Under the pieces are notes generated by a model, which saw only the letters and a program-made list of their open reading frames with translations, had not been told where the DNA came from and searched no databases. A DNA stretch of 64,000 nt from the NCBI RefSeq assembly GCF_020520425.1, contig NC_079491.1:29937449-30001448 (forward strand), in the 5' to 3' direction. Both the position numbers and the translations under genes were made by a program. This document shows positions 1 through 64,000 of the stretch, one piece after another (the stretch's first letter is position 1; each line of letters begins with the position of its first letter). Source of the stretch: Spinacia oleracea. Its lineage: Eukaryota; Streptophyta; Magnoliopsida; Caryophyllales; Amaranthaceae.

Positions 1-770
1 AGTTCCCTTCAAAACCTCAACTGCTAACTGCCAGCACTTTGGTCTCCACGTCCCTTGACTTGAGGAACAAGGGGAAGACCACTTCCCACGTTCAGCCATA
101 AAGCAGTTAGTGATTTGACTCAATCAAACCCTAAAATATTTCTTTAAAACAGATTTTATTTATCTACAAAAACTTAGGAGAATTTTTAGGAAAATAAGTT
201 TTGTTTAAATAAAATAAAACGTAAATCTATTTTATATTAAATATGCAAAACTTGTTTTTATTTATGAAAATGTTTTCCATAAAAATCGCTTCCAATAAAA
301 TAAATGGCCTAATTAAATCATAAGTTCCTTGGGTACTCTATATACCATTAGCATAATTAATATTTACATAAAATTCTAAGTACAGTGGACTACCTAGACT
401 TTATGTCTTCCCTTTGTCTGGAACTTGCAACTCAGAAGCTTCAGACGTTCCAGCCAAGGAACATTGATGAGTTCCTCTCTAGCTAACACAGGAACTCTTG
501 GCTATGAGTCTGTAATAGTTCTTGTGGATATTCGGAACTCTTGATATGTAACTGTGTTGCTCCTCTTGTGACTTCAAACTGGAACAGATACAACTTCCAG
601 CTCTGAAACTCCATTGACTGTTCCAAGTGTACCTCAGGAACTTCACCAGTTTATTCAAGTTCCTATCCTAATAGAAACTTGGGCATATGCCTGTTCAAAG
701 TCATTTAGCAACCATAATCAGGAAGTTTGCAATATGTGTGTGTGTCATCAACCAAAACTTAGGAACAACA
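1..770 (-). repeat. Element A 3' LTR (partial)
   Basis: Position 1 matches 8280 and position 770 matches 9049 of the other LTR, without a difference I could find by eye. The inner edge (plus-strand ...GGAACAACA) is the LTR 5' terminus TGTTGTTCC on the element strand. It directly follows the polypurine tract. Confidence 0.95.
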
Positions 771-785
771 ATATTCCCCCTTTTT
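771..785 (-). other. Element A polypurine tract
   Basis: On the minus strand this reads AAAAAGGGGGAATAT immediately before the 3' LTR. The same 15 bases precede the 3' LTR of element C (53849-53863). It is the expected plus-strand DNA primer site for copia elements. Confidence 0.85.
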
Positions 786-1287
786 GGTGATGACAACACT
801 TGCAAACTTTTTACAAAGAGAGTAATTACAAACAAACAAGAACTTATACAGACTATTGTGAAACAGAACATAAAAATTGAAAAACAAAAGAGAAAGATTA
901 GAGAGAAGAAAGAGGAGCACCCTTGGCTTACAGAGAGATTCAGAGAGATTGATTCAGGAACTGGATTGAGTGTGCCTTGGAAGTTTGCACCCATGACTTC
1001 CCCCTGTTGACATCAACAAAAAGCATAGCACGAAATATAGCCATTCCAAACACAGTGCCCCACGATCAACGTTTGGCAAGTTAAGCTAGCCTCAAAGTAT
1101 TAAACTAACTCATACAATAAATTGAAAGCAAGCAGTAATGATCAAGACTAGAAAGCATAGATATGTGTAACCAAGCAAGTCAAAATAAGATGGAACAAAT
1201 ACCCAAGTTTAAAAATTATACAAACCGAAAGCAAATTAAAAAGATTGTTCCATGGCAAAAGATAAAAGAAACATGGGATAGGGTGAT

Positions 1288-2967
1288 TTAGGCTTGGGAT
1301 GGGGAACCAGAACCAGCAGTTTCTTCTATCACAGTCTCCTCAAAAGATTCCAGATTGTTGATCTTGGTGAGGATTGTGGCACGAGTTGCATTGGCTTGTT
1401 CTGAGTAGTGGTGAAGATCGTTTTGGAGAGTCTTGACACTTGTAACCAATGCACCTATGTGGGCCTGCATTGAGCTAATCCTGTGATCTGTTCCCTCCTG
1501 TAGTTCCACCAGACGAGCAACTGTTGCCTTTAGCTCCAATATCTGATCATCCTTTGTGTTCCAGGCACCCCCATGATCTTGAACATGTTCCTGTTCAGAT
1601 GGAACACGACGAGCTTTGGACTTTTTGGAGGATCTGGGTGTCCTTTTTCTTGGCCTAACAGTTTCAGGCAGTTCCTCTTGATTCAGTGGAACAGCATCCT
1701 CCTCTATGGGCATCTCCTTGACATCCCCTTCCTCATTTATTTCCATGAAGACAGGCCCTCTTTTCTTGTTCTCCTTCATTGCTACCCTCATGCTCTTTCT
1801 TTTTCCTACACTCTTCCTGTTCCCTCGAGGTAAAGGGACCTCTATTTGTTCGAGTTCCTCCTCCTCCTCCACTTCTTCTTTAACTGCAATTCCTTCCTGA
1901 TCTTCCTCATCTTGTTTCTCTTCCTTTCCAGCCCTAATGACTTTACCCTGAACCACTTTAAGATTTAATAGATGGAGCATTTCAAGTTGAAGGATTTGGG
2001 TGGATTTTAAGGGAATCACAAAGTATGGGCTAAGGTCAACTGAGAAGCTTTTGAAGATTTCTGTAAGAAGGGAGGAGTATGGAATTTTGAATTTGGGGAT
2101 ACAGGTGGATAAGTGTTTGATCATGATTGCAGGAAAGTTTATGGGAATTTTCCTTTCAAGACAATACATGAGACATGCATCAAACAGACTTGCTATGTTC
2201 CTTTTCTGAGTTCGAGGAACTACACCTCTCCACACAATATTAAACAGTAATTTTTGAAGAGGTGAAAAGCAGTTGTGTGAGGTGGAGGTGGATACTTTAG
2301 AATCTCCTCCAATGGAACCAACTATATCTTTCTCATCTACATTATCTATGGTCACTGTGATTTGACCTTTGAGCCACATATCAAAACCCCTATTGGGTGT
2401 ACCAAACAGCTGTTCCAGATAAGAGGCATCAAATTCGATGCGAGTTCCATTCACTTTACTTGAACATACATTATCAACACATGCAAAGTTCTTGCAGAAT
2501 TCTTTCATAGCTTCAGGAATTAAGGGGGATTTGGCATAGGTACTCAACAGACTTACCCACTTTTGTTGTTCAAGGATTTCCATCAACTCTTTAAATTTCG
2601 TGGCTTCACACCATGTTGAGTTGATTGCGAACCCCTCGACCAGATTGTTTTCCTTTGCAGTGAGTTTCTTGGACCCTTTTGCTTCCCCCTGAGTTTGAGC
2701 ATTCTCCTCTGTTTCCTCGATGTTTTCACCAGAAGCTTCCACTCGTCGTTTTTTGGATTTTCTTGTGGAGGATCTAGGGTTTGAGATTGGGGATTTCATT
2801 TCGATGTCAGTGTTGGTTTGTTCCCCCTGAGTGATTGCGAGCATTGGATTGTGGGATCGAAGAGGAATTGGCGATTGAATGGGTGAGGTATCCATGGGAA
2901 CAGGAGATGAAGGGTTTCTCTTTCGTTTGAGGGATGTGAGATCAGTGTTGTTGCTTGTGAGAACCAT
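1288..2967 (-). CDS. Third ORF of element A, conserved in the 'env-like' position
   Basis: This 559-residue ORF lies between pol and the 3' LTR. I chose the ATG at 2967 because it aligns with the only possible start of the homologous ORF in element C; an upstream in-frame ATG at 3105 would add 46 residues. Visible parts: a Ser/Pro-rich N-terminus with basic, NLS-like clusters (LKRKRNP, RKSKKRR); a globular middle (about residues 110-340) holding the conserved stretch WRGVVPRTQKR; an acidic/basic linker; and a C-terminal coiled coil ending NNLESFEE. The middle resembles the 'putative plant transposon protein' domain found in many plant genomes; that is recall, not a search. No signal peptide or clear membrane span is visible, so it does not look like an envelope protein. 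Function unknown. It is intact here and broken by one stop in element C. Confidence 0.75.
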   Translation of the reverse strand: MVLTSNNTDLTSLKRKRNPSSPVPMDTSPIQSPIPLRSHNPMLAITQGEQTNTDIEMKSPISNPRSSTRKSKKRRVEASGENIEETEENAQTQGEAKGSKKLTAKENNLVEGFAINSTWCEATKFKELMEILEQQKWVSLLSTYAKSPLIPEAMKEFCKNFACVDNVCSSKVNGTRIEFDASYLEQLFGTPNRGFDMWLKGQITVTIDNVDEKDIVGSIGGDSKVSTSTSHNCFSPLQKLLFNIVWRGVVPRTQKRNIASLFDACLMYCLERKIPINFPAIMIKHLSTCIPKFKIPYSSLLTEIFKSFSVDLSPYFVIPLKSTQILQLEMLHLLNLKVVQGKVIRAGKEEKQDEEDQEGIAVKEEVEEEEELEQIEVPLPRGNRKSVGKRKSMRVAMKENKKRGPVFMEINEEGDVKEMPIEEDAVPLNQEELPETVRPRKRTPRSSKKSKARRVPSEQEHVQDHGGAWNTKDDQILELKATVARLVELQEGTDHRISSMQAHIGALVTSVKTLQNDLHHYSEQANATRATILTKINNLESFEETVIEETAGSGSPSQA

Positions 2968-3380
2968 GGTGGAGGTTTTTATAGGTGGAAGGAGAGGTGA
3001 TGTCAGTGGAGAAGGCGTGTGAGAGAGAGAAAGGGGGTTGCATGGATTGATTGTGGAAAGTGAAGAGTTTCTCCTATTTATTGCCAATGGAACCGTTCCA
3101 AACATTCTTTGAATATGGGTATTCGGTTTTTAATTAAAAAAAATAAATAGATAAAAATAAAAGGAAAATGAAAAAAATTGTGTTTGACTTTGACTTGCTT
3201 AATTTCGTATCTCTGACTTAACTAGTTTGAAAGGAACTGCTTACCTTGCTCATTTGAAGTGTGAGTGAATTTGCCACGATGGTAAGCTTCAACTATGTTT
3301 GCACACAAGATTTTGTGTTTGTAATAGTCTATATGTACCATGATTTTTGCTTTTGCCTTAGAGGAACTCCAATTTGGCAA

Positions 3381-6300
3381 TTACCTTAGCTTGATCATTC
3401 CGAGTTCCATTCTCATTTTCTCATGTTTCTCTCTGTTCAAAGGCTTAGTTAAAATATCAGCAATTTGGTGATCAGTTTGGCAAAAATCTAATTTGATCAA
3501 ACCTTTCTCAACATTATCTTTAAGGAAATGGTGTCTGATGTGGATGTGTTTGACTCGGGAATGATGAACCGGATCTTTTGAAATACAAATAGCACTAGTG
3601 TTATCACAATAGATAGGAACACAATCATAGATAATACCAAAATCTCTTAGCTGTTGTTTTATCCATAGAATTTGTGAGCAACAAGCTGCAGCAGCTACAT
3701 ACTCAGCTTCAGCTGTGGATAGAGCAACAGTATTCTGTTTCTTGGAACCCCAAGAAACCATGCATGGACCTAGGAACTGTACCATACCTGATGTGCTTTT
3801 TCTATTCACTAAGTCACCTGCATAATCAGCATCTGCATATCCTCTTAGCTCGAAGGATCCACTTCTTGGATAGTAAAGGCATAGGTCATCAGTTCCTTTG
3901 AGATATCTTAGTATTCTTTTCACCGCAGTTAGATGGGACTCTTTTGGATTTGATTGAAATCTTGCACATAGTCCTACACTAAAAGAAATGTCAGGTCTAC
4001 TGGCTGTTAAATATAATAGAGATCCAATCATACCTCTGTATTTTGTTTGATTCACACTTTTCCCATTTGGATCAGTGTCTAATCTGGTAGCAGTTCCCAT
4101 GGGAGTGTGATTTACTTTGGCTGATTCTAGCTCATATTTCTTTAGGAGTTCCTTCACATACTTTTGTTGGTGTATCATGATTCCCTCCTCGGTTTGCTTG
4201 ATTTGTAAACCAAGGAAGAAGTTGAGTTCCCCCATCATACTCATTTCAAATTCACTGCTCATCAAGCTTGCAAAATCCTTGCACAAATTTTCATTAGTTG
4301 CTCCAAATAATATATCATCAACATAAATTTGAACTACTAACAAGTCAGTTCCTCTAGATTTTAAGAATAAGGTTTTGTCTATTCTACCTCTTTTAAAATC
4401 ATTTTGAAGGAGGAACTTTGATAATCTCTCGTACCAAGATCTAGGGGCTTGTTTTAGTCCATAGAGAGCCTTATCTAATTTGTAAATGTGATTTGGAAAT
4501 TCGGGATTTTCAAATCCAGGGGGCTGTTCCACATAAACATCTTCCTCTAAGAAACCGTTTAAGAAAGCACATTTAACATCCATTTGATAAAGTTTAAAAC
4601 CCATGAAAACAGCAAAAGCAATTAAGATTCTAATGGCTTCTAATCTAGCAACAGGTGCAAATGTTTCTTCAAAGTCAATGCCTTCCTGTTGATTATAACC
4701 TTTGACCACTAACCTTGCTTTGTTCCTTATGATTGTTGCATGTTCATCTTTCTTGTTCCGGAACACCCATTTTAGCCCTATCACCTTCTGGTGCTTTGGT
4801 TTGGGTTCCAAGTGCCATACCTTGTTTCTTTTGAATTCATTTAATTCTTCTTGCATGGCAATGATCCAGTCAGCATCTTCCAGAGCCTCAGTGTGATTTC
4901 TTGGCTCAAATATGGAGAGGAACGCGTGGAATGCGCAAAAGTTCCTTAGTTGTGACCTTGTCTGAGTTCCTTTTCTGATGTCACTCACAATGAGTTCCAT
5001 TGGGTGGGACTTTAGATGCTTCCAAGGTTTAGGTTGAAATTGAGCTACTGGTGTTGTGGCATTTTCGTCAGTTCCTTCTATGACCTGAGTTCCCTGTTGG
5101 GGTTCCTCTGGTGTTGTTTCTGGATCTTCTTGGTTTTCTGCTTGTTCCTCTAGTACGGGAACTTCTTGATTTTGTTGAGCAGTTCCTCTTGCTGTGTGTT
5201 TGCTTATTTGGAACTCCTCATCATTTTCTGCAGCACGAGATAAACCAATCTCGAAAAATTCTTGTTCCTGTACTATGTCAGTTTTGTTAGATTCATCAAA
5301 TATTATATGTACACTTTCCTCAACACACATAGATCTTTTGTTATAAACTCTATAAGCCTTGCTATTTAAGGCATATCCTAGGAACACTGCCTCGTCGCTT
5401 CTTTCATCAAACTTCCCCAAGTTCCTTTTTCCATTGTTGTGGACAAAACATTTGCTCCCAAAGGCTCTAAAGTAAGAGATGTTGGGTTTTATACCTTTTA
5501 GTAGCTCATAGGGGGTTTTGTTTAGGATTGCTCGAATCATAACTCTATTTATAATGTAACAAGCAGTATTGACTGCTTCAGCCCAGAAGTTCCTAGGCAA
5601 GGAACTGGCTATTAGCATGGTTCTTGCCATGTCCTCTAGGGTTCTATTTTTCCTCTCAACAACTCCATTTTGTTGTGGAGTTCTGGGAGCTGAGAAATTG
5701 TGGTCCATACCTTGTTCCTTGCAGTATTCATCGAATTTGTAGTTTTCAAATTCTGTTCCATGATCTGATCTTATATGGATCAGTTGGTGACCTGTGGTTT
5801 TCTGGATTTTCTTTGAAAATGTAACAAACTCATCAAACGTTTCATCCTTGCTTGTTAGAAATATGACCCAAGTAAAGCGAGAGTAATCATCAACAATAAC
5901 TAATACATATTTTTTCCCACTTCTGCTTTGAATTCTCATTGGTCCACATAAGTCCATATGGATGAGTTCCAATGGTTTTGTGGTGCTTACCAATTTCTTA
6001 GATTTAAAGGAACTTCGGACATGCTTGCCTTTTGCACATGCATCACACACTTTATCAGTTAGGAACTTGATTGAGGGGAGTCCTCGAACCAGTTCCTTTG
6101 ATCTTAGTTTGTCAAGCAGCGAGAAACTAGCATGTCCGAACCTCCTGTGCCATAGTAGGGAATTTTCTTCAAGGGCACTGAGGCAGGTTAGATTGTTCCT
6201 GGGAACTGTATTGAGATCCACAGAATATGTGTTCCCTTTACGAGTTCCTTCCAAAATAACCTTCCCAGTGTTATTGTTTATGATTTGACAGTTTTCAGAA

Positions 6301-7685
6301 GTAAAACTTACAGAGTTTCCTTTGTCACAGAATTGAGAGATGCTTAGTAGACTGTGCATCAAACCCTCGACTAAAAATACATTTTCAATGGCGTAGGAAC
6401 TTGACCTTCCAACTTTTCCAATTCCAATAATTTCTCCTTTCATGTTGTCTCCAAAGGTCACAGTTCCTCCATTGTAGGCTTCTAGTGAGAGAAATTTAGA
6501 TTTGTCTCCTGTCATGTGTTTGGAACACCCGCTGTCGAGATACCACGAGCTGTTCCCCTTCACTAGAATTTCTTCTGATGGAACTTGATCAGTTCCTTCT
6601 GTTCTAGCCATAAGGCAGAGATTTGCAGTTTCTTCATTTGGTTGTTCCTCATCGTCTTCTGAGTCTGTTGCTTCGCCCCATGCAGCTATCATGGCCTTCT
6701 TGAAGTTTGGTCTGTTGAAGGTAGACTTGTTAAAGCGATCTTTGACCTGTTCCTTCCCTTTTCCTCTGGTCTTGTCGTTCTCCCACAGAGGGCATTCACG
6801 AATTTGATGATCAGTTTCTCCACATTTGAAGCAACCTTGCTCAGTTTTGGAACTAGTGATTTTCTTGGCAAAGTTCCTTCCTTTCTGGTTTCCTGGTTTG
6901 AAGTTCCTATAGAGCTTTCTCATTCTTCTGACCAGCATGGCAGCCTCTTCTTCATCTGGTTCAGATTCATCGAGTTCCTCAGCCTTTAGAGCAAGTCCTC
7001 GACTTCTTGAGCTCTCGGGAACAGCAGCTCCAAGATGCAGTTCGTGTGTCATCAAGGAACCAGCAAGTTGTTCAATGTTGAACTTGGTGAAGTCCTTGGT
7101 CTCAAACAGTGCAGTGACCTTTGTTCTCCAGCGATCATCTTGTGGCATGCTTCTTAGTATTTTTCTTACCTGTTCATCTGTGGGAATGATTCTACCAAGA
7201 GAAACTAATTCATTGGTTATGTTAGTAAATCTAGTGAACATTTCTTGAATAGTTTCTTTTGGAAGCATCTCAAATCTTTCATATTTAGACATCAAAAGGT
7301 CAATTTTGGAACGCTTAACTTCATTAGTTCCTTCGTGGGTTACTTGAAGTAGTTCCCAAATCTGTTTTGCGTTCTTGCACCCCATGACTCTGTTGTGTTC
7401 ATGAGGTCCAAGCCCGCAATGCAAGATTTTGACAGCCATGGCATTCATCTCATATTTATCAAAGTCTTCTTTAGAAAATTCAGACATTGGTTTAGGAACT
7501 ACCTCGTTTTCAGCATTGGTCTTTGTTACCTCGAAGTCTCCAACTTCAATTACACGCCAAACTTGGTAATTTTCAGCTTTGATGAATATCTCCATTCTAT
7601 TCTTCCAGTATGAGTAGAACTTGCCATTGAACATAGGTGGCCTTTGTGTCGAGTAACCTTCTTCCAGTTTCTCTTGTGAGTTCAT
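3381..7685 (-). CDS. Gag-Pol polyprotein of element A
   Basis: A single ORF of 1434 residues encodes the whole copia polyprotein. Order: Gag; CCHC zinc knuckle [14 protein letters not shown] (about residue 285); protease with active-site [14 protein letters not shown] (about 380); integrase with its HHCC zinc motif (HRRFGHASF...CDACAKGK, about 510-560) and DDE core (D in MDLCGPM, D in RSDHGTEF, E in VVERKNRT); RT with QIYVDDI (about 1120); RNase H to the end. The start is the ATG at 7685 ([10 protein letters not shown]), shared with element C; the frame stays open upstream only through a TTG. Protease follows Gag after ...[10 protein letters not shown] at 6570/6569, exactly where element C has a 728-nt intron-like segment. 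All catalytic motifs that I can see are intact, so the copy may be competent. Confidence 0.95.
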
Positions 7686-7735
7686 ACTTTCAGGAACTTG
7701 ACTCAAACAGGGTTTCCTGTGTTTTAGTGAGTACT

Positions 7736-7748
7736 GGCTCTGATACCA
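7736..7748 (-). other. Element A primer binding site (initiator Met-tRNA type)
   Basis: The minus strand reads TGGTATCAGAGCC two bases after the 5' LTR end. This is the usual copia primer site complementary to the 3' end of initiator methionine tRNA. Confidence 0.9.
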
Positions 7749-7750
7749 AC

Positions 7751-9049
7751 TGTTATTCCAGTAGGAACACGCACAAGAGGGGGGGGGGTGAATTGTGATT
7801 AGAACTTTGATAAAGTTTCTTGCGGAACTTAAGAAACAATCAAGAAACTGAGAATAGAGAAGACAATAACAACAATTGTGAAAACTTCTTGATACTAATC
7901 AAGAAGAGAATTCTTTTATTATGGTAATGCCTCGATTACAATAATCTCTCCAACACAAGTTCCTCTCAAACTCGTGTTCCTCACAGTAATCTACTTCGAT
8001 TACAACTCCTTAACTTCTCTCTCTCAGACTTAAACTCTAAGTCTAAACAGGATAACTCTATCCTTACTAATACAAATTATAATTCGTGTTTGGATAACTC
8101 TAGATATTAATAATGCTTTTGTGTGGATATAAGGAACTTAGGAACTTTGAATTAACTAGGACACAAACTGTTTTAGAAAATCTTAGACAAAACGTTTTTA
8201 GGAAAGCAAGAATTCTCAGAATGTTTGTGTGCTTTAAACCAAAAACGATTTCCCTTTTATAGTGTTTATCCTTAGGGTTAGTTCCCTTCAAAACCTCAAC
8301 TGCTAACTGCCAGCACTTTGGTCTCCACGTCCCTTGACTTGAGGAACAAGGGGAAGACCACTTCCCACGTTCAGCCATAAAGCAGTTAGTGATTTGACTC
8401 AATCAAACCCTAAAATATTTCTTTAAAACAGATTTTATTTATCTACAAAAACTTAGGAGAATTTTTAGGAAAATAAGTTTTGTTTAAATAAAATAAAACG
8501 TAAATCTATTTTATATTAAATATGCAAAACTTGTTTTTATTTATGAAAATGTTTTCCATAAAAATCGCTTCCAATAAAATAAATGGCCTAATTAAATCAT
8601 AAGTTCCTTGGGTACTCTATATACCATTAGCATAATTAATATTTACATAAAATTCTAAGTACAGTGGACTACCTAGACTTTATGTCTTCCCTTTGTCTGG
8701 AACTTGCAACTCAGAAGCTTCAGACGTTCCAGCCAAGGAACATTGATGAGTTCCTCTCTAGCTAACACAGGAACTCTTGGCTATGAGTCTGTAATAGTTC
8801 TTGTGGATATTCGGAACTCTTGATATGTAACTGTGTTGCTCCTCTTGTGACTTCAAACTGGAACAGATACAACTTCCAGCTCTGAAACTCCATTGACTGT
8901 TCCAAGTGTACCTCAGGAACTTCACCAGTTTATTCAAGTTCCTATCCTAATAGAAACTTGGGCATATGCCTGTTCAAAGTCATTTAGCAACCATAATCAG
9001 GAAGTTTGCAATATGTGTGTGTGTCATCAACCAAAACTTAGGAACAACA
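7751..9049 (-). repeat. Element A 5' LTR (1299 bp)
   Basis: Complete LTR with termini TGTTGTTCC...GGAATAACA on the element strand. A TATAAAA box lies at 8255-8261 (minus strand), about 790 bases into the LTR, a plausible U3/R promoter. A G-homopolymer sits near the inner end (plus 7781-7788). The 3' half is identical by eye to the visible part of the other LTR. Its first bases resemble the element C LTR (both contain TTTTGGTTGATGACA). Confidence 0.95.
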
Positions 9050-17247: not shown

Positions 17248-17452
17248 TGAAGAAGCTAAGCAATGAAGAAGCAAAGCAGCAGAACAAGCAAAGCAGAAGA
17301 GAATTGTGTTTGGGAAAAATATTCGAATGAAAACAAAATTCATTACTTGAGTAACAAGTAGACTAGGGTATATATACAAGGCTCTAACTAACTAATAACA
17401 GAAATTAGTTAGAGAATAATAAAATAATAATATAAGTTAGATATTTCCTATA
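17248..17452 (-). repeat. Element B 3' LTR (205 bp)
   Basis: On the element strand it starts TATAGGAAATATC and ends GCTTCTTCA, so the usual TG start is replaced by TA. It is adjacent to the target duplication GATAT on the left and to the polypurine tract on the right. Confidence 0.9.
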
Positions 17453-21568: not shown

Positions 21569-21774
21569 TTCAAGAATCAATTCCAATAAGAATCAAATTT
21601 CACTAGAAATCGTGCAAGAAATTTGCAATAATCGCAAGAAATTTCGCAACAAAATTCCAGTAATATCTTCAGTGATTAAACACTTTCAGTTTAAGAAATC
21701 AAGATCAAACAAGAAAATTAATTCTCGAATTGAGAAACCTCAATCTCTTATCAGAGATTATTGCTCTGATACCA

Positions 21775-21979
21775 TGAAGAAGCTAAGCAATGAAGAAGCA
21801 AAGCAGCAGAACAAGCAAAGCAAAAGAGAATTGTGTTTGGGAAAAATATTCGAATGAAAACAGAATTCATTACTTGAGTAACAAGTAGATTAGGGTATAT
21901 ATACAAGGCTCTAACTAACTAATAACAGAAATTAGTTAGAGAATAATAAAATAATAATATAAGTTAGATATTTCCTATA
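21775..21979 (-). repeat. Element B 5' LTR (205 bp)
   Basis: Partner of 17248-17452 with three substitutions by eye. A TATATATA stretch at about 21896-21903 is the probable promoter core. The primer binding site follows without a gap. Confidence 0.9.
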
Positions 21980-44392: not shown

Positions 44393-44919
44393 AGCGTAAT
44401 GAATTAGATCAATTTAGTTTGTAAATGATTTGGGTTAAATGGATTACAGGTTGTAAACGGTTCAGGTTAAACGGATTCCGGGTTGTACATTGTTCGAGTT
44501 GAAACAGTTTGGGTTGTAAACGTCTGGATTGAGACAATTCGGGTTGTAAACGGTCCGGGTTGAACAGATTTTTTCACGGGTTGAAACGGTTCGGGTCATT
44601 AACGAGTTTCGAATCCCTTCGGTTCGGATAGAAACGGTTCGTGTTGCTGCAGAACGGTTTGTTACGGGTTTTGGTTCTTAATCGGGTTAATATTTCCAAG
44701 TCGATTCGGGTTCAGATATCGGGTTCCAACTCATGGGTTATTAACTTTTCGAGTTCTAAACAAACGGATTAACCCAATGGATTCAACGGTTTGGGTTGAG
44801 AATTGAGTTATGGCAATCCATACGAATATGATTGACAAATTGGTGACTATTTCGTTTTCCCTACCACTGACCAAACAATCGAAGGATATACACTGCCTAC
44901 AAGTGGCTTTAATTGTTAT

Positions 44920-46169
44920 TGTTGACCCTGATTTTGGTTGATGACAAATAGCAAACTTCCTGATTAAATTTTCTGTTGTGTCTACAAGTAAAGTGTTTCT
45001 GTTCCAGAGAGGAACTTGAGATGGCTGCTGATATTCCTGAGGTGGAATGCGCAAAGCTAGGAACTCCAAGCTAATACACAACAGAGGAACAACAAAGCAA
45101 AGGAGGATGAAGTTTTCATGTGATGAGTTCCTCTGTCCCTTTAGAGGAACTCACCTGTTCCAGAGAAGGAACCATTGCAGCTGCTGAGTTGTAGCTCCAG
45201 TAAAAGAGCAAAACACGAACCTAGGTAGTTAAATACTCTTAGATTTCTGTGTAAAATAATAACAGCTATAAAGATACATTGTGGAACTAGGATGCTTGAT
45301 TTAATATTTATTAAGATTTTATCAAAATATTTAACAGCTAGTTTTAAGGGAAAATTACATAAATAAAGTGTCGTTTTATTTTCTTTAATGAAATCTATTT
45401 TTATCCTTTCTGTTAAAACAGTTTTACTTTCCCTAAAACTTCTCCTAAATATCTGATTTGATTTCAGTAAATAATTTCACAAATCTTTTAGTGGTTGACA
45501 AAATCTAAACCATGATTTTCTCTAAAAAAACCGTTTTAAAGGAAGTGGTCTTCCCTTGATCCACAAGTCATGGATCGTGGAGACCAAGTTTTTAGGAGTG
45601 GGGGTAGTTGAGATTTGAAGGGAACTAACCCTAAGGATCATCTCTATATAAAGAGTGGTTTTCCTTCTGGTAAAATTACACAAATATTCTACCTACTTTC
45701 CAATCTAGAAAAACGCTTTCAAAAGAGTTTATAAAATTGATTTGTGTCCTAGCAATATTCAAGTTCCTAAGTTCCACAAATATCAGAAGAGCTTTATTAT
45801 TAACTAGAGTTTTCAAAACAAAATTGTAATCTGAGTGAGTAGAGATTGAGTAATCTCGTAAAGGCTTTTGAGTTAAAGTCGTGAAAGAGAGGAAAAGAAT
45901 AGAGAGTAATCAGAGCAGATTACTGTGAGATACTTGAGATTGAGTGGAACTCAAGTTGTTATATTATTGTAATCGAGGAATTATTTTAATATAAAAAGGG
46001 TTTTGAGGTTTTCTCTTCTTGATTAGTGTCAAGAAGTTTCCTCAAATTGAGCAACATTCGTTTCTGTCTTTTTCAGTTCTTTATATTACCTTAAAAGCAA
46101 AGGAACTCACTCTAGTTCCGAAAACAATTCACCCCCCCCCCTCTTGTGCGTGTTCCTATTAGACTATCA
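44920..46169 (+). repeat. Element C 5' LTR (1250 bp)
   Basis: Begins TGTTGACCCTG, ends AGACTATCA. A TATATAAA box lies at 45645-45652, a plausible promoter core. A C-homopolymer near 46132-46141 varies in length between the two LTRs. Confidence 0.95.
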
Positions 46170-46171
46170 AT

Positions 46172-46184
46172 TGGTATTAGAGCC
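46172..46184 (+). other. Element C primer binding site
   Basis: TGGTATTAGAGCC, two bases after the LTR, differs at one base from the initiator Met-tRNA site TGGTATCAGAGCC used by element A. Confidence 0.85.
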
Positions 46185-46235
46185 AGTACTCAATAAAAAC
46201 ACAGGAAACCTTGTTTGAGTCTAGTTCCTGATAGT

Positions 46236-48062
46236 ATGAATACACAAGAGAAACTGGAAGAAGGCTACTCCACGCAAAGGCCACCTATGTTCAACAGCAA
46301 ATTCTACTCATACTGGAAGAACAGAATGGAGATATTCATCAAAGCAGAAAATTACCAAGTATGGCGTGTGATTGAAGTTGGAGACTTCGAGGTAACAAAA
46401 ACCAATGCAGAAAACGAGGTAGTTCCTAAACCAATGTCTGAATTCTCTAAAGAAGATTTTGATAAATATGAGATGAATGCTATGGCAGTTAAAATCTTGC
46501 ATTGTGGACTTGGACCCCATGAACACAATAGGGTCATGGGATGCAAGAACGCTAAACAAATTTGGGAATTACTACAAGTAACCCACGAAGGAACTAACGA
46601 AGTTAAACGTTCCAAAATTGATCTGTTAATGTCTAAATATGAGAGATTTGAAATGCTTCCAAAAGAAACTATTCAAGAGATGTTTACTCGTTTTGCTAAC
46701 ATAACAAATGAATTAGTTTCCCTTGGTAGAATCATTCCCACAGATGAACAAGTGAGAAAAATCCTAAGGAGCATGCCTCAAGATGATCGTTGGAGAACAA
46801 AGGTCACAGCACTGTTTGAGACCAAGGATTTCAGAAAATTCAACATTGAACAACTTGCTGGTTCCTTGATGACTCATGAACTGCATCTTGGAGCTGCTGT
46901 TCCCGAGAGCTCCAGAAACCGAGGGCTTGCTCTAAAAGCTGAGGAACTCGATGATTCTGAACCAGATGAAGAGGAGGCTGCTATGCTGGTCAGAAGAATG
47001 AGAAAACTCTACAGGAACTTCAAACCTGGCAACCAGAAAGGAAGGAACTTTACAAGGAAAACTGTCAGTTCCAAAACTGAGCAAGGTTGCTTCAAATGTG
47101 GAGAAACTGATCACCAAATTCGTGAGTGCCCTCAGTGGGAAAATGACAAAAGAAAAGGAAAGGAACAGGTCAAGGAACGCTACAATAAATCCACCTTCAA
47201 CAAGCCTAACTTCAAAAAGGCTATGATAGCTGCATGGGGCGAAGAAACTGATTCAGAAGATGATGAGGAACAACCAAATGAAGAAACTGCAAATCTTTGT
47301 CTTATGGCAAGAACAGAAGGAACTGAACAAGTTCCATCAGAAGAAGTAAGTTCCTCCACTCTTCAGTGTCTCTCAAAGTCAAAACTAATTGAACTATTGC
47401 TAGAAACTCTAGATGATTATAAAAAGCTAAGTATTTTAAAAGCACAAAGTGATAGAGCCTTGGAACTCAGTAAAGATCACATAAATTACTTGAACAACAT
47501 TAGATCTGATGTTCAAGGCAGGTTCTTTGAGTTGCTAGATAGAAATACCTCCATTAATGAGTCTTTTGAGAAAATTAGAAATGAGAACATACTTCTACAA
47601 GTGCAACTCAGTCAATATAAGATGTTTAACCTAAGTTTAGATCCCACAAAGTCCCTGGAGATTAAAATGGGAGTGTTCAACATCGACTTAGAAAGGTTGA
47701 ACAAAGATCTGATAACCACAAAGGAACAGAAAGAGAAACTAGAGAGGGAATTGGCCATGGCTAGGGCACAGAAACATCCACCTAAAGTTCCCCCCAAGTG
47801 GATTGAGAATGCTCAATCCAAGAGAACAGAAGGTCTAGGTTACAATCACAAAACCAATCATAAGAAAAAGTATGTGGAACTCCCTAGTGTAAAAGTCTGT
47901 TTCTCGTGTGGCAGTGGAAATCATGTAAGCACTGAATGCTCTAAAATGAAGGAACTAGATCAAAGAAACATAGATTATGTAAAGAAAAAGTGGGTTAAGA
48001 AGTCAGACATTGTAGTTGAAAAGGAACTCGAGGAAACTCGAGTTCCTGTAACTAATCTTTGA
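46236..48062 (+). CDS. Element C Gag, unspliced form with coiled-coil and second zinc knuckle
   Basis: Unspliced RNA encodes 608 residues from the ATG at 46236 ([17 protein letters not shown]). Residues 1-370 align with the Gag part of element A and contain the CCHC knuckle [14 protein letters not shown] (about 285). Residues 371-608 are encoded by the intron-like segment: a long charged helical region (about 380-540) with coiled-coil character, and a second CCHC knuckle [14 protein letters not shown] (about 554-567). A TGA at 48060-48062 ends the frame 11 bases before the putative splice acceptor. This would be a Gag-only product that assembles particles. As I recall, Sirevirus Gags often carry such an extended coiled-coil part. 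I infer that it is the alternative to the spliced Gag-Pol. Confidence 0.85.
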
Positions 48063-48073
48063 TTTCTTTACAG
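47346..48073 (+). other. Putative retained intron separating gag from pol
   Basis: The donor is GAA|GTAAGTTCC (47346) and the acceptor TTTCTTTACAG|GTT (ends 48073). A branch-point-like ACTAAT at 48051-48056 lies about 20 bases upstream of the acceptor, followed by a pyrimidine-rich tract. The length of 728 nt is not a multiple of three, so gag and pol are in different frames unless it is removed; removal joins codon GAA to GTT in frame. Element A lacks exactly this segment (junction 6570/6569). The match to GT-AG rules and to the element A junction makes splicing the simplest reading. Confidence 0.85.
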
Positions 48074-51000
48074 GTTCTAGTGAAGAGGAACAGCTCGTGG
48101 TATCTCGACAGCGGGTGTTCCAAACACATGACAGGAGACAAATCAAAATTCCTCTCGCTAGAAGCCTACAATGGAGGAACTGTGACCTTTGGAGACAACA
48201 TGAAAGGAGAAATTGTCGGAATTGGAAAAGTCGGAAGGTCAAGTTCCTATGCAATTGAAAATGTATTTTTAGTCGAGGGTTTAATGCACAGTCTACTAAG
48301 TATTTCACAATTTTGTGACAAAGGAAACTCTGTAAGTTTTACTTCTGAAAATTGTCAAATCATTAATAATCACACTGGGAAGGTTATCTTGGAAGGAACT
48401 CGTAAAGGGAACACATATTCTGTGGATCTCAATACAGTTCCCAGGAACAATTTAACCTGCCTCAGTGCCTTTGAAGAAGATTCCCTATTATGGCACCGGA
48501 GGTTTGGACATGCTAGTTTCTCACTGCTTGACAAACTAAGATCAAAGGAACTAGTTCGAGGACTCCCCTCAATCAAGTTTCTAAATGATAAAGTGTGTGA
48601 TGCATGTGCAAAAGGCAAGCATGTCCGAAGTTCCTTTAAGCCTAAGAAATTGGTAAGCACCACAAAACCTTTAGAACTCATCCATATGGACTTGTGTGGC
48701 CCAATGAGAATTCAAAGCAGAAGTGGGAAGAAATATGTTTTGGTTATTGTTGATGATTACTCCCGTTTTACTTGGGTCATATTTCTAACAAGCAAAGACG
48801 AAACGTTTGATGAGTTTGTTGCATTTTCAAAGAAAATCCAGAAAACTACAGGTCATCAACTGATCCACATTAGATCTGATCATGGAACAGAATTTGAAAA
48901 CTACAAATTCGATGAATACTGCAAGGAACAAGGTATGGACCACAATTTCTCAGCTCCCAGAACTCCACAACAAAATGGAGTTGTTGAGAGGAAAAATAGA
49001 ACCTTAGAAGACATGGCAAGAACCATGTTAATAGCCAGTTCCTTACCTAGGAACTTCTGGGCTGAAGCAGTTAACACAGCTTGTTATATTATAAATAGAG
49101 TTATGATTCGAGCTATCCTAAACAAAACTCCCTATGAGCTACTAAAAGGTACAAAACCCAACATCTCTTATTTTAGAGCTTTTGGTTGTAAATGCTTTGT
49201 TCACAACAATGGCAAAAGAAACTTGGGAAAGTTTGATGAAAGAAGTGATGAAGCAGTGTTCCTAGGTTATGCCTTAAATAGCAAAGCCTACAGAGTATAT
49301 AATAAAAGGACAATGTGTGTAGAAGAAAGTGTTCACATAATTTTTGATGAATCTAACAAATTTGATGCAGCACAGGAACAAGAAAGTTTCGAAATTGGTT
49401 TGTCCCGTATCTCAGATAATGATGAAGAGGTTCATCCAATCAAACAAACAGCTAAAGAAACAGTTCAACAGAATCAACAAGTTCCAATTCAAGAGGAACA
49501 ACCAGAAGGTCCAGTTCCAGAAGAACCTGAAACAGCATCTGAACCCGAGGAACTCTATGGCTCACAACAAGGAACTGAGATCACAGAAGGAACAGAAGGA
49601 GCTACTACAACACCAGTTGCACAATTTCAACCCAAACCTTGGAAGCATCAGAGTTCCCATCCAATAGAACTCATTATGAGTGATATTAGAAAAGGAACTC
49701 AGACGAGATCCCAACTAAGGAACTTCTGTGCAACTCACGCATTCCTCTCCATGATTGAACCAAGGAACCACAATGAAGCCTTGGAAGATGCTGACTGGAT
49801 AATTGCTATGCAAGAAGAGCTGAATGAATTCAAAAGAAACAAGGTATGGCACATGGAACCCAAGCCAAAACATCAAAAGGTGATAGGACTGAAATGGGTG
49901 TTCCGGAACAAAAAGGATGAACATGCAACAATCATAAGGAACAAAGCAAGGTTAGTAGTTAAAGGTTATAATCAACAAGAAGGTATTGACTTCGAAGAAA
50001 CCTTTGCTCCTGTTGCTAGACTAGAAGCCATTAGAATTTTAATTGCCTTTGCTGCATTTATGGGTTTTAAACTTTATCAAATGGATGTTAAGTGTGCCTT
50101 TTTAAATGGGTTCCTAGAAGAAGATGTATATGTGGAACAACCCCCTGGATTTGAAAATCCTGAATTTCCAAACCACATATACAAATTAGACAAAGCACTC
50201 TATGGACTAAAACAAGCTCCTAGGTCTTGGTATGAAAGACTTTCAAAGTTCCTTTTAGAAAATAATTTTAAAAGAGGTAGAATAGATAAAACTTTGTTTC
50301 TAAAATCAAAAGGAACTGACTTATTAGTTGTTCAGATTTATGTAGATGATATATTATTTGGGGCAACTAATGAAAATCTGTGCAAGGAATTTGCAAATCT
50401 AATGAGCAGTGAATTTGAAATGAGCATGATGGGGGAACTCAACTTTTTCCTTGGTCTACAAATCAAACAAATAGAAGAAGGAATCATGATCCACCAGCAA
50501 AAATATGTGAAGGAACTCCTAAAGAAATATGAGCTAGATTCTGCAAAAGTAAATCACACTCCCATGGGAACTGCCACCAGATTAGACACAGATCCTAATG
50601 GGAAGAGTATAAATCAAACGAAATATAGAGGTATGATTGGATCACTCTTATACTTAACTGCTAGTAGACCTGACATTTCTTTTAGTGTAGGACTATGTGC
50701 AAGATTCCAATCCAATCCAAAGGAGTCTCACTTAACTGCTGTAAAAAGAATACTTAGATATCTCAAAGGAACTGATGATCTATGCCTATTCTATCCAAGA
50801 AGTGGATCATTCGAGCTAAAAGGATATGCTGATGCTGATTATGCAGGTGACCTAGTAAACAGAAAAAGCACATCAGGTATGGTACAGTTCCTAGGTCCAT
50901 GCATGGTTTCTTGGGGTTCCAAGAAACAGAACACTGTTGCTCTATCCACAGCTGAAGCTGAGTATGTAGCTGCTGCAGCTTGTTGCTCACAAATTCTATG

Positions 51001-51283
51001 GATAAAACAACAGTTAAGAGATTTTGGTATTATCTATGATTGTGTTCCTATATTTTGTGATAACACTAGCGCTATCTGTATTTCAAAAGATCCGGTTCAT
51101 CATTCCCGGGTCAAACACATTCACATTAGACACCACTTCCTTAAAGACAATGTTGAGAAAGGTTTAATTAAATTAGATTTTTGTCAAACTGATTATCAAA
51201 TTGCTGATATTTTGACTAAGCCCTTAAACAAGGAGAAACATGAGAAAATGAGGATGGAACTCGGAATGATCAAAATAAGATAA
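48074..51283 (+). CDS. Element C Pol (second exon of the predicted Gag-Pol)
   Basis: Protease, integrase, RT and RNase H, 1069 residues after the predicted acceptor; joined to Gag residues 1-370 this gives about 1439 residues, against 1434 in element A. Motifs: protease [14 protein letters not shown] near the start; integrase [17 protein letters not shown] and the DDE residues ([23 protein letters not shown]); [15 protein letters not shown] (about 50337-50370); RNase H with YADADYAG and CDNTSA. No stop or frameshift is seen. It lacks its own ATG: the open frame begins at a TTG at 48059, so translation must come from spliced RNA, or by a frameshift or reinitiation. Confidence 0.93.
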
Positions 51284-51677
51284 ATGCAAAAGTGAAGTTC
51301 CTCTGAAGACAAAGACAACAACAATGGTGTATGATACTGATTATTTCAAACACAATTTTCGTGTGCAAACACAGTTGAAGCTTACCATCGTAAAAGATCG
51401 ACTCACTCAACACTTAAGCCAGGTAAGCAACTCCCTAACAAATCAGTAAATATTAGAAAATTAACCAAGCAATTTTTATTATTTTTTTTAAAAAAGTTGT
51501 TACGATTTTAAATTTTTAAATAAACAAAATCCTATTTTTTCGTTCCAAATCAAATCAGCAATATAAAAGAAACACTTCACCTTCCATCCATTCCCCTTAC
51601 TCAAATTCCCTCATCTTCCACACGGTTTCTCCCACTTAACCTCTTAAATTCCCCACACCTATAAAACGCCTAAAACC
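51284..51677 (+). other. Spacer between pol and the third ORF of element C
   Basis: Two things here are conserved in element A: a donor-like AGGTAAGCA (51421-51429; A at 3247-3239) and a CACCTATAAAA box just before the ORF start (51657-51667; A near 2984-2974). Either could serve expression of the third ORF. Otherwise AT-rich. Confidence 0.45.
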
Positions 51678-53363
51678 ATGAGCACCTCAAATCACACCAT
51701 CAAATTCCTCCAACTCAAAAGAAAAAGAAACCCTAACTCTCCGATTCCGATGGAAACCTCACCCGCTCAATCACCAACCAAATCACCATCACCACTCCAA
51801 ATTCAACCACCCCCTGTACTCGCCCTCACCTACGGCGATTGGACCGACCAACCAATGGAAACCCAAAGTCCCACTCCACCACCTGGCCGTCGATCTTCCT
51901 CAAGAACCAAGAGACAAAAAATCGACAAGTCTGAGGAACAGGAGGCTGAAACTCAGGGGGAAACAGAGAAGCTAGAGGAACTGGAAAAGGGTCTCACTGG
52001 TGGATTTGCGATCAACTATGTGTGGTGCAAATCGGAAAAATTGGAATAGCTCGTTGGGATTCTTGATCACCAACAATGGGTAAGCCTCTTTGATATACAT
52101 GCAAGACTACCAATCTATCCCTTAGCTGTCAATGAATTCTGTGATCATTTCGAGTGCAAAGATGGGGTTGTTTCCAGCATTGTAAATGGAACTCAAATTT
52201 CTTTTGATGCAACTTATTTGTCCAATCTGTTTGGTGTACCCAATGAGGGTTTTGAGGAATATGTGAAAAAGAAAACCACAATCACAATAAATGAAGTTGA
52301 TAGTAATCAAATTGTGGCAAACATAGGGGGAAATCTCAAAGAATCATCTATCACTAACCACAATCTTCTTTCACCACTCCACAAATTGCTTTTCAACCTT
52401 GTCTGGAGGGGGGTAGTTCCTAGGACTCAAAAGAGGGACGATGTCAGTTTTTATGATGCATGTCTAATCTACTGCCTTGAGTTTGATGTTCCAATCAATT
52501 TTCCAGCCATCATGATCAAACACCTAGCCCACTGCATTTCTGGTAAATACAAAATTGGGTATGGTTCCCTACTCACTGCCATATTCAACAACTTCGCAGT
52601 TGACCTGAGTTCCTATGAATCCCAACCCCTAACCCCTTCTCAAATTATTCAAGAAAAATTCCTAAGAAATCTGAAGTTGGTTGTAGTGGATAAAGTGTTA
52701 AGTTTCTCTGGAAAAAGGGAGGTAGAACCTGAAGTTCCTAGCTTGGAGGAAACTGTGTCATTAAAAACAAAGAGTGTTCCTAAGAGGGGTCATAGAAAAA
52801 GTATGAGAATTGCTACCAGACCTTGCAAAGTTCCTGCTCCACCTGTTTATATGGATATCACCTGTGAAGAAGAGGAGGAAGAGGACACAGGAACTAAGCC
52901 AGTTCCACAGGACAAACAGGAACTGACAAAGATTCTTAGGACCAAATCACCAGTTCCTAAGAAACCTGCGTCTGTTCCTTTCACCAAAGGAACTGGAACC
53001 ACTCCTGTTCTTCAAGCTGTTTCTACTAAAACTCCAGGCTCTCTGGGTGGTTTTGCTGGTTTCACTGGTTCCTCTGGGTTTGGAACACCACCAGTTACTG
53101 CTGAAAAATTCCAGGAGCTCCAGGATTCAGTGATGCGCTTAAATGCACTACAGGAGGGATCTAACCTTCGAGTTCAACAAATGCAGACACAATTGAACAC
53201 CTTGGTCAATGCAGTTCAAACACTCCAAACCAACCTCCAACAATATGCTGATCAAGCCAACACCACTCGCACTGAGATTCTGCAGAAAATCAACAACCTT
53301 GAATCCTTTGAGGAAGTTGTGGTGGAAGAAACTGCTGCCTCAGATTCTCCTAACCAAGCCTAA
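51678..53363 (+). pseudogene. Third ORF of element C, interrupted by one TAG
   Basis: Homologue of the third ORF of element A: 562 codons in one frame from the ATG at 51678, with a TAG at 52047-52049 (codon 124) as the only interruption. The layout is the same: Ser/Pro-rich start with KRKRNP and KRQK basic clusters, a globular middle with WRGVVPRTQKR, a linker rich in Pro/Thr/Glu, and a coiled-coil tail ending NNLESFEE. Sequence is well preserved after the stop, so the stop is recent or suppressed. Function unknown; possibly a captured domain of the 'putative plant transposon protein' type. Confidence 0.8.
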
Positions 53364-53848
53364 ACAACCCTTCATATCTTTTATATTAACTGCTGTTATG
53401 GAACAATTTTTTTTGGTTTTGTATAACTAAACAATGGGAATCCTCCCTTTTTGCTTAAATTTTTCAAACTTGCTTGGTTGAAAATCTACATATTGCTGTT
53501 TATATGGTTGTTGCTTCTCGGATTATTATGTTGTGTAAGCAGGTACAATACTTTGAGGCTAGCTTGACTTGCCAAACGTTGATCGTAGGGCACTGTGTTT
53601 GGAATATATGTATCTGCATTGCTCTTTTTGTTAATGTCAACAGGGGGAAGATCACTGAGCAAACTTCTTAAGGAGATCAAACTTTGTTTGACACTCGGAC
53701 TCTTCATGTTCTATCCACTGTAAGGGTAAATTTTTTTTTTTTTGCTTTCAATTTTATTATCTTGTTTATTTTTGTTACTATCCACACTTCATCAACTCCA
53801 TGTGATTTAATCTCTTATGATAAAAAGTTTGCGGATGTTGTCATCACC
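53364..53848 (+). other. 3' untranslated region of element C
   Basis: No coding potential. The section near 53560-53650 (GCCAAACGTTGATCGTAGGGCACTGTG, in pieces) is conserved with element A at about 1055-1085 in reverse, so it is retained internal sequence upstream of the polypurine tract. Confidence 0.5.
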
Positions 53849-53863
53849 AAAAAGGGGGAATAT
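53849..53863 (+). other. Element C polypurine tract
   Basis: AAAAAGGGGGAATAT directly before the 3' LTR; identical to the tract of element A. Confidence 0.85.
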
Positions 53864-55113
53864 TGTTGACCCTGATTTTGGTTGATGACAAATAGCAAAC
53901 TTCCTGATTAAAGTTTCTGTTGTGTCTACAAGTAAAGTGTTTCTGTTCCAGAGAGGAACTTGAGATGGCTGCTGATATTCCTGAGGTGGAATGCGCAAAG
54001 CTAGGAACTCCAAGCTAATACACAACAGAGGAACAACAAAGCAAAGGAGGATGAAGTTTTCATGTGATGAGTTCCTCTGTCCCTTTAGAGGAACTCACCT
54101 GTTCCAGAGAAGGAACCATTGCAGCTGCTGACTTGTAGCTCCAGTAAAAGAGCAAAACACGAACCTAGGTAGTTAAATACTCTTAGATTTCTGTGTAAAA
54201 TAATAACAGCTATAAAGATACATTGTGGAACTAGGATGCTTGATTTAATATTTATTAAGATTTTATCAAAATATTTAACAGCTAGTTTTAAGGGAAAATT
54301 ACATAAATAAAGTGTCGTTTTATTTTCTTTAATGAAATCTGTTTTTATCCTTTCTGTTAAAACAGTTTTACTTTCCCTAAAACTTCTCCTAAATATCTGA
54401 TTTGATTTCAGTAAATAATTTCACAAATCTTTTAGTGGTTGACAAAATCTAAACCATGATTTTCTCTAAAAAACCGTTTTAAAGGAAGTGGTCTTCCCTT
54501 GATCCACAAGTCATGGATCGTGGAGACCAAGTTTGTAGGAGTGGGGGTAGTTGAGATTTGAAGGGAACTAACCCTAAGGATCATCTCTATATAAAGAGTG
54601 GTTTTCCTTCTGGTAAAATTACACAAATATTCTACCTACTTTCCAATCTAGAAAAACGCTTTCAAAAGAGTTTATAAAATTGATTTGTGTCCTAGCAATA
54701 TTCAAGTTCCTAAGTTCCACAAATATCAGAAGAGCTTTATTATTAACTAGAGTTTTCAAAACAAAATTGTAATCTGATTGAGTAGAGATTGAGTAATCTC
54801 GTAAAGGCTTTTGAGTTAAAGTCGTGAAAGAGAGGAAAAGAATAGAGAGTAATCAGAGCAGATTACTGTGAGATACTTGAGATTGAGTGGAACTCAAGTT
54901 GTTATATTATTGTAATCGAGGAATTATTTTAATATAAAAAGGGTTTTGAGGTTTTCTCTTCTTGATTAGTGTCAAGAAGTTTCCTCAAATTGAGCAACAT
55001 TCGTTTCTGTCTTTTTCAGTTCTTTATATTACCTTAAAAGCAAAGGAACTCACTCTAGTTCCGAAAACAATTCACCCCCCCCCCCTCTTGTGCGTGTTCC
55101 TATTAGACTATCA
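53864..55113 (+). repeat. Element C 3' LTR (1250 bp)
   Basis: Same termini as the 5' LTR. Differences seen by eye include A/G in AAATCTATTT versus AAATCTGTTT, a one-base A-run indel and a one-base C-run indel. The GTTAT duplication follows. Confidence 0.95.
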
Positions 55114-55118
55114 GTTAT

Positions 55119-55378
55119 AAACCAAATTTAACCTCTCATTTTGAGTATAACCCTTGGAAAATTTTATCAACGACCTAAAATAGTCGACATTCTTAAATAT
55201 ATATTGTTTCGGGTATGAAACGATGTCATGATGATGGTATGAGCGTCCTTGGTGTCTTGAGTTTCGGCCGCGTACAGTGCCTATAAGATGAACTCTGGGT
55301 CGAGGGGGGATCCCTGAGGCAAAGCCTCCAACGCTCAAGTCAATACAATTGATGTATAATTGAGAGTATTTTGGGAGG

Positions 55379-63342: not shown

Positions 63343-63564
63343 ATGAAAGTCTGCCTACAAAACAAATTCATGGGCAAGTAGACAACGGGTAGGTTGTGTA
63401 TACATTATGTCTTGTTTTTTTATATTAAGGGCAAAATGCTACAATTGGCCATTTACAAAGCTATACCTAAAATAATGGCCTTATGGTATTACACCTAACA
63501 TGCAAAACAATCCCAAATCAAACCTCACCTAAAAAAACAACCCAAAAAAAAATCATAACTCACC

Positions 63565-64000
63565 AGTTCTACGCACTGATCTGCACAGCTCAGATCAGAA
63601 CTGTGCAGATCAATGCACAGAACTGATCAGAACTGACCAGTTTTGTGCACTGATCTGCACAGTTCTGATATGAGCTGTGCAGATCAGTGCACAGAACTGA
63701 TCAGAACTGACCAGTTCTGTGCACTGATCTGCACAGTTCTGATCTGAGGTGTGCAGATCAGTGCATAGAACTGATCAGAACTGACCAGTTCTGTGCACTG
63801 ATCTGCACAGTTCTGATCTGAGCTGTGCAGATCAGTGCACAGAACTGATCAGAACTGACCAGTTCTGTGCACTGATCTGCACAGTTCTGATCTGAGCTGT
63901 GCAGATCAGTGCACAGAACTGATCAGAACTGACCAGTTCTGTGCACTGATCTGCACAGTTCTGATCTGAGCTGTGCAGATCAGTGCACATAACTGCACAG
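63565..64000. repeat. 74-bp palindromic tandem repeat
   Basis: Units start at 63565, 63639, 63713, 63787, 63861 and 63935: five full units and one partial at an exact 74-base period. Each unit is a 24-base arm (AGTTCTGTGCACTGATCTGC plus CACAG-type end), a 12-base centre, the reverse-complement arm, and a 14-base spacer. The final unit diverges near 63990, so the array may end there. Confidence 0.95.

Follow-up and report, generated by a model that had tools for sequence, protein, structure and literature searches.

A candidate coding intron at the gag/pol boundary of a Sirevirus-type retrotransposon in spinach

Retroelements require more Gag than Pol, and a Ty1/copia element in the 64,000 nucleotides of Spinacia oleracea DNA analysed here (the window) raises the question of how its Pol is made at all. 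In this element, termed element A, gag closes with a stop codon and pol lies in a frame that differs from it by -1 so that, as an earlier note on this DNA had pointed out, pol is out of frame unless 728 nt are removed. The catalytic DSG of the protease is encoded at 48107, while the first in-frame ATG of pol lies downstream of it, at 48128; an intact protease thus needs either a fusion or a non-AUG start. Element A comprises the following features.

44920..55113, plus strand: element A, complete Sirevirus-type Ty1/copia element
44915-44919 and 55114-55118: target-site duplication GTTAT, flanking both ends
44920..46169, plus strand: 5' LTR (TGTTGA...CTATCA), paired with the 3' LTR
46236..48062, plus strand: gag ORF of the unspliced RNA, 608 aa, TGA at 48060-48062, with PF14223 and zf-CCHC (Pfam)
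46236..47345, plus strand: Gag part that splicing would retain, 370 codons, with the first CCHC knuckle at residues 285-298
48056..51283, plus strand: pol frame (protease, integrase, reverse transcriptase, RNase H), -1 frame, putative second exon from 48074
52050..53363, plus strand: extra 3' ORF in envelope-like position, open from stop to stop, PF20167
53864..55113, plus strand: 3' LTR, with AAAAAGGGGGAATAT directly upstream

The two LTRs are 99.4% identical over 1254 aligned positions, and element A appears to be an intact-looking, recently inserted Sirevirus. Its Pfam domains (PF14223, zf-CCHC, Pol_BBD, gag_pre-integrs, rve, SH3 and RVT_2) follow copia order, and its sequence features place it in the Sirevirus/SIRE lineage of Ty1/copia. 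Excerpts of PMC5009743 and PMC2829016 describe as Sirevirus hallmarks a 5'-AT/TG-3' between the terminal polypurine tract and the 3' LTR, which in element A reads AAAAAGGGGGAATAT/TGTTG at 53864, and a 27-nt boundary motif with an 11-bp stem and a 4-nt loop, which corresponds to an inverted repeat of that geometry at 48022-48047. The extra 3' ORF at 52050-53363, matched by PF20167, agrees with the excerpted statement that 74% of SIRE elements carry one (PMC6317226). A scan of 44900-55200 against Rfam gave 0 matches at the gathering score, and the patterns tried for an LC8-type motif gave no match in the Gag of element A.

The candidate intron and an intron-less relative

The segment whose removal would bring gag and pol into one frame carries the following signals.

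47346..48073, plus strand: candidate coding intron, GT...AG, 728 nt, encoding Gag residues 371-608 and precisely missing from element B
47346..47351, plus strand: candidate donor GTAAGT after GAA, directly following a complete Gag codon
48052..48056, plus strand: CTAAT, branch-site-like pattern in the sequence
48061..48073, plus strand: pyrimidine-rich acceptor GATTTCTTTACAG, candidate 3' splice site

The borders read GAA/GTAAGT...TTTCTTTACAG/GTT, with TTTCTTTACAG ending at 48073 and the junction at 48073/48074, and the gag stop at 48060-48062 sits 11 nt upstream of the acceptor end. The earlier note had listed this donor, the CTAAT, the acceptor, the length of 728 nt and the 11-nt spacing, all of which were confirmed, and its estimate of an in-frame Gag-Pol of about 1439 residues agrees with the 370 + 1069 codons that the join would leave. 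The plus strand of 46236-51283 contains two GTAAGT. Of 143 YAG sites, six including the acceptor are preceded by at least 9/11 pyrimidines, and the acceptor ranks joint second when ties are broken by T content. Among the nine pairs of a GTAAGT with a strong acceptor, 47346/48073 is the only one that gives an in-frame gag-pol, by frame arithmetic done by hand. Within the candidate intron the gag frame is open up to its stop and the other two frames contain 25 and 28 stops. The segment is not U-rich, its T content being 25.4%, compared with 22.2% for the gag exon and 26.6% for pol, which counts against reading it as an intron.

A second element in the window, termed element B, lies about 36 kilobases from element A on the opposite strand.

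1..9049, minus strand: element B, intron-less Sirevirus relative extending past the window start, with the 5' LTR from 9049 and the 3' LTR from 770
3381..7685, minus strand: single Gag-Pol ORF of element B, 1434 aa plus stop
6569..6570, minus strand: site matching the candidate splice junction of element A in the A/B alignment

Element B is without exactly the 47346-48073 segment of element A, and the flanks are co-linear with 84% and 89% identity to A. A one-base ambiguity allows two placements of the gap, the base after the acceptor being G in A and A in B, and one placement corresponds to GT...AG. At a random pair of break-points GT...AG would be expected with a chance of ~0.4%, or 0.7% with two placements, given the base frequencies of 46236-51283. 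The LTRs of element B differ at 2/776 compared bases, both within the six bases that precede the LTR, and 770/770 bases agree within the LTR itself; this near-identity indicates that element B is very young.

Database proteins point to an intron-containing sister of element B. P0001, a Gag, is identical to the Gag of element B at 372/372 positions and then continues into the intron-coded 238 residues, of which 221/238 are identical to A, while P0121, a pol-only ORF, matches the pol of element B at 1038/1044 positions (99.4%). Such a sister therefore exists and the loss of the segment was recent. No fused B-type protein of high identity over its full length was present among the best 120 of 744 protein matches. 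The intron-less evidence comes from a single copy, element B, and its progenitor is known from proteins alone; element B is most simply read as the recent product of a spliced RNA that was reverse transcribed.

Conservation of the segment and the boundary hairpin

Beyond what the earlier note had recorded, the analysis brought out the Sirevirus identity of element A, a conserved Gag domain in the segment and the correspondence with the published gag/pol-boundary hairpin. A second CCHC knuckle was located by pattern match at Gag residues 555-568, inside the candidate intron, Pfam having returned the first knuckle only. At an E-value limit of 1e-3 with filtering switched off, the intron-coded part found a BLAST match in 75/231 relatives, some of these matches being weak, and a further protein search returned 10 proteins, 8 of them new. 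In 29 aligned Gag-only relatives from quinoa, spinach and other contigs, hand-picked from the 42 of that class, many keep CX2CX4HX4C, TEGLGF, YVDLPS and the C-terminus, some being shortened or divergent there. The Sirevirus lineage is described as having an enlarged Gag with a coiled coil beyond the zinc knuckle; in the present set the Gag extension of 238 aa is conserved, and some quinoa relatives are annotated as coiled-coil protein. On this comparative evidence the candidate intron is ancestral coding sequence for a conserved Gag C-terminus; that the segment was inserted into element A is ruled out, since relatives carry it.

Gag residues 370-371 (E-V), whose codons lie on either side of the exon/donor border, are conserved in 17/29 and 18/29 relatives, respectively, while at the ten preceding positions the residue of element A is kept in at most 9/29. 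Residues soon after position 375 are likewise well conserved, so that the conservation of 370-371 may reflect protein constraint. The donor valine is also not universal, being replaced by leucine in 8/29 relatives, six of them from spinach, which counts against the splicing reading.

Several of the collected records call for separate comment. The legume and flax proteins P0130-P0135, P0051 and P0204 have Gag joined to protease near the donor position of element A and lack the Gag extension; they are either spliced gene models or products of intron-less copies. P0087, recorded under Klebsiella pneumoniae, is a Sirevirus Gag from a plant, probably through plant contamination of a bacterial record, and P0043, a spinach gene model that fuses a Sirevirus Gag to a cytochrome P450, results either from faulty annotation or from gene capture. 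Genome contigs yielded 14 related loci, the closest of which (L004) shares 63% identity and covers pol residues 708-1065 only, and none of the 14 entered the comparisons; the contig that bears this SIRE-like pol end is catalogued as a genome bin of Eubacterium and is probably plant contamination as well. No relative was confirmed in the viral contigs searched for related DNA.

The inverted repeat at the boundary was compared with shuffled sequences.

48022..48047, plus strand: 11-bp hairpin with a GAAA loop at the gag/pol boundary, folding against shuffles

The folded stretch (48020-48048) has a z-score of -7.2, with 0/200 shuffles as stable. The hairpin ends 4 nt short of the CTAAT; the gag stop follows it at a distance of 12 nt and the acceptor end at 26 nt. 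A similar arrangement is hinted at by Gag C-termini, collected from 239 proteins plus element A as proteins of <800 aa ending in [VI]P plus 3-6 residues, which gave 42 ends with A included. In 41/42 of these exactly four residues separate VP from the stop. The 11-bp stem is encodable in 26/42 Gag ends, as against 61/23195 control 9-mers, and the last residues could encode CTRAY in 32/42, as against 2368/23195 control 4-mers; these counts express what the protein permits through synonymous codons rather than the DNA itself, come from related, non-independent sequences and serve as hints only. Among the 42, no more than 8 pairs can form in P0006, P0010, P0019 and P0023, and CTRAY cannot be encoded by ten ends. 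In some Sireviruses a UAG stands 10 nt past the gag stop, according to excerpts of PMC5009743 and PMC2829016, approximately the position of the acceptor CAG in element A.

A broader proposal, which we put forward tentatively and at less than even odds, is that the Sirevirus hairpin, debated since 2003 as a translational recoding signal, belongs to a regulated 3' splice site, in which the hairpin and the branch site would be held at fixed spacing from the gag stop and the acceptor. Sireviruses generally would then obtain Pol by removing a coding intron from gag, and packaging of spliced RNA would be frequent enough to found intron-less sub-families.

A proposed splice switch and other routes to Pol

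For element A itself, we consider it probable (about 0.77) that the 728-nt segment is a coding intron, that unspliced RNA yields a long Gag and spliced RNA a Gag-Pol, and that element B descends from spliced RNA. Unspliced RNA would be translated up to the gag stop into a long Gag with two zinc knuckles and a C-terminal extension. Splicing from 47345 to 48074 would take out the extension together with the stop and abolish the frame difference, producing a Gag-Pol polyprotein that contains core Gag only, and the ratio of Gag to Gag-Pol would be set by the efficiency of splicing. The hairpin, situated just 5' of the branch-like site, is a candidate brake on splicing. Spliced RNA would occasionally be packaged and reverse transcribed, giving rise to intron-less copies such as element B. 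What the sequences show directly are the frames, the splice signals, the exact intron-less copy and the conservation of the protein encoded by the intron; we infer that splicing is partial and regulated and serves as the principal way of making Pol, that element B goes back to spliced RNA and not to a deletion by chance, and that the hairpin takes part. The splice switch that the earlier note had proposed is supported in part: the segment behaves like an intron whose excision fuses Gag with Pol, as the precise excision in element B together with P0001 shows, and the unspliced frame encodes the long Gag.

The selection of the acceptor seems more certain than that of the donor. Further in-frame donor candidates lie closer to the acceptor.

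47925..47930, plus strand: alternative in-frame donor candidate CAT/GTAAGC, phase 0
47994..47999, plus strand: alternative in-frame donor candidate TGG/GTTAAG, phase 0, where some quinoa and spinach models leave gag

It is accordingly conceivable, although we consider it rather unlikely, that splicing to 48074 mostly uses a donor closer to the acceptor, such as 47925 or 47994, in which case Gag-Pol would retain the bulk of the extension and the excision seen in element B would be a minor event. The GT at 47925 and that at 47994 both being in phase 0 would permit this, and in 8/9 proteins from quinoa, spinach and beet the join falls on the residue that corresponds to the second exon of element A, from several upstream points. 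Against it, these joins are those of deposited gene models, the GTAAGT at 47346 is closest to the consensus and the sole genomic excision found uses 47346.

Ribosomes might instead arrive at Pol through bypass, internal entry or re-initiation at the hairpin, the GT and AG being incidental and the loss in element B an unrelated deletion. Bypass or internal entry is what excerpts of PMC5009743 and PMC2829016 propose for Sireviruses with separate gag and pol frames, the hairpin being linked there to the bypass idea, and the hairpin of element A is intact and fits that idea as well, which counts against the splicing reading. We nevertheless judge this route improbable, because the loss in element B matches GT...AG at both ends and leaves one open frame, the first pol AUG is downstream of the protease active site and the offset of pol is -1 in element A as opposed to the +1 given in those excerpts. 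An offset that differs between families would be expected from splicing more than from a fixed ribosomal shift. Two related mechanisms were also considered. A ribosomal -1 frameshift was rejected, as the gag frame contains a single X XXY YYZ heptamer, at 47435, which pol-frame stops, the nearest at 48053, separate from pol. Internal initiation at the first AUG of pol is disfavoured by the position of this AUG downstream of the protease DSG.

Reverse transcriptases are known to make internal deletions, and the loss in element B could in principle have arisen by template switching or by recombination in DNA or cDNA, splicing playing no part. This origin appears very unlikely, in that the ends of the missing segment share no direct repeat beyond one or two bases and both coincide with splice sites, the strongest donor and one of the top-ranking acceptors. 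Least probable of all is decay of element A, whereby a frame shift would have divided an originally single gag-pol ORF and no regulated switch would exist: some plant relatives (e.g. P0140 and P0160) do have the Gag extension and Pol in one frame, but the near-identical LTRs, the perfect target-site duplication and two open ORFs of element A, the recurring Gag end and the 11 pol-only proteins that begin near its gag/pol border all speak against decay.

Relation to known systems

The proposed coding intron resembles exitrons, exonic introns of plants in which protein-coding sequence is kept or removed as an intron, and differs from them in residing in a retrotransposon, in including a stop codon and in opening a second gene on removal.

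Among retrotransposons the closest functional parallel is Ogre, a Ty3/gypsy element in which unspliced RNA stops after the first part and splicing in a subset of the RNA gives the whole polyprotein (PMC6317226, in excerpt). Splicing restores one long polyprotein in Ogre and would do so in element A. In contrast with Ogre, where the intron follows the protease, the candidate intron of element A lies before the protease, in a Ty1/copia element, and consists of conserved Gag coding sequence; element A would thus work like an Ogre while not being one. EVD, an Arabidopsis Ty1/copia element, also decides between Gag and Gag-Pol by splicing near the gag/protease border, but its spliced RNA gives Gag only and its unspliced RNA Gag-Pol (excerpt of PMC8892269), the opposite of the direction proposed for element A. 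Barley BARE1, also Ty1/copia, has a facultative 104-nt intron at the end of gag, a position shared with element A, whose splicing creates a stop after Gag (excerpt of PMC3735527), whereas in element A splicing would remove the stop and join Pol. The excision in element B, which fuses Gag to Pol, accordingly differs from the spliced, Gag-only RNA of EVD and BARE1, and the splice logic of Drosophila copia is likewise opposite to that proposed for element A (excerpts of PMC8892269 and PMC3735527). The earlier note had called the logic of this locus reversed, a description that holds relative to EVD, BARE1 and Drosophila copia but not relative to Ogre, which already has such logic in Ty3/gypsy.

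The published split-frame Sireviruses share with element A their lineage, a long extended Gag and the 11-bp stem with its 4-nt loop; element A differs in its offset, in its splice sites and in having a spliced-looking relative. Pol expression in these Sireviruses is called a puzzle in a review (excerpts of PMC5009743 and PMC2829016), and the literature searched, as excerpted, contained no description of gag being linked to pol by splicing in a Sirevirus. If real, the coding intron would answer this puzzle for at least one family of Sireviruses, a large plant-specific group, and Gag and Gag-Pol would then differ not only in amount but also in RNA-binding and assembly domains. If element B did arise from spliced RNA, that RNA can complete the life cycle, which would make element B a natural version of the intron-marked transposition assay.

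Two further repeats were observed in the window. A shorter copia-like element at 17248-21979, minus strand, has 205-bp terminal direct repeats that are 98.5% identical and pol pieces that are 33-37% identical to element A, and a tandem array at 63552-63995 has a 74-bp period and six copies, as judged from self-match spacing, which are 86-95% identical.
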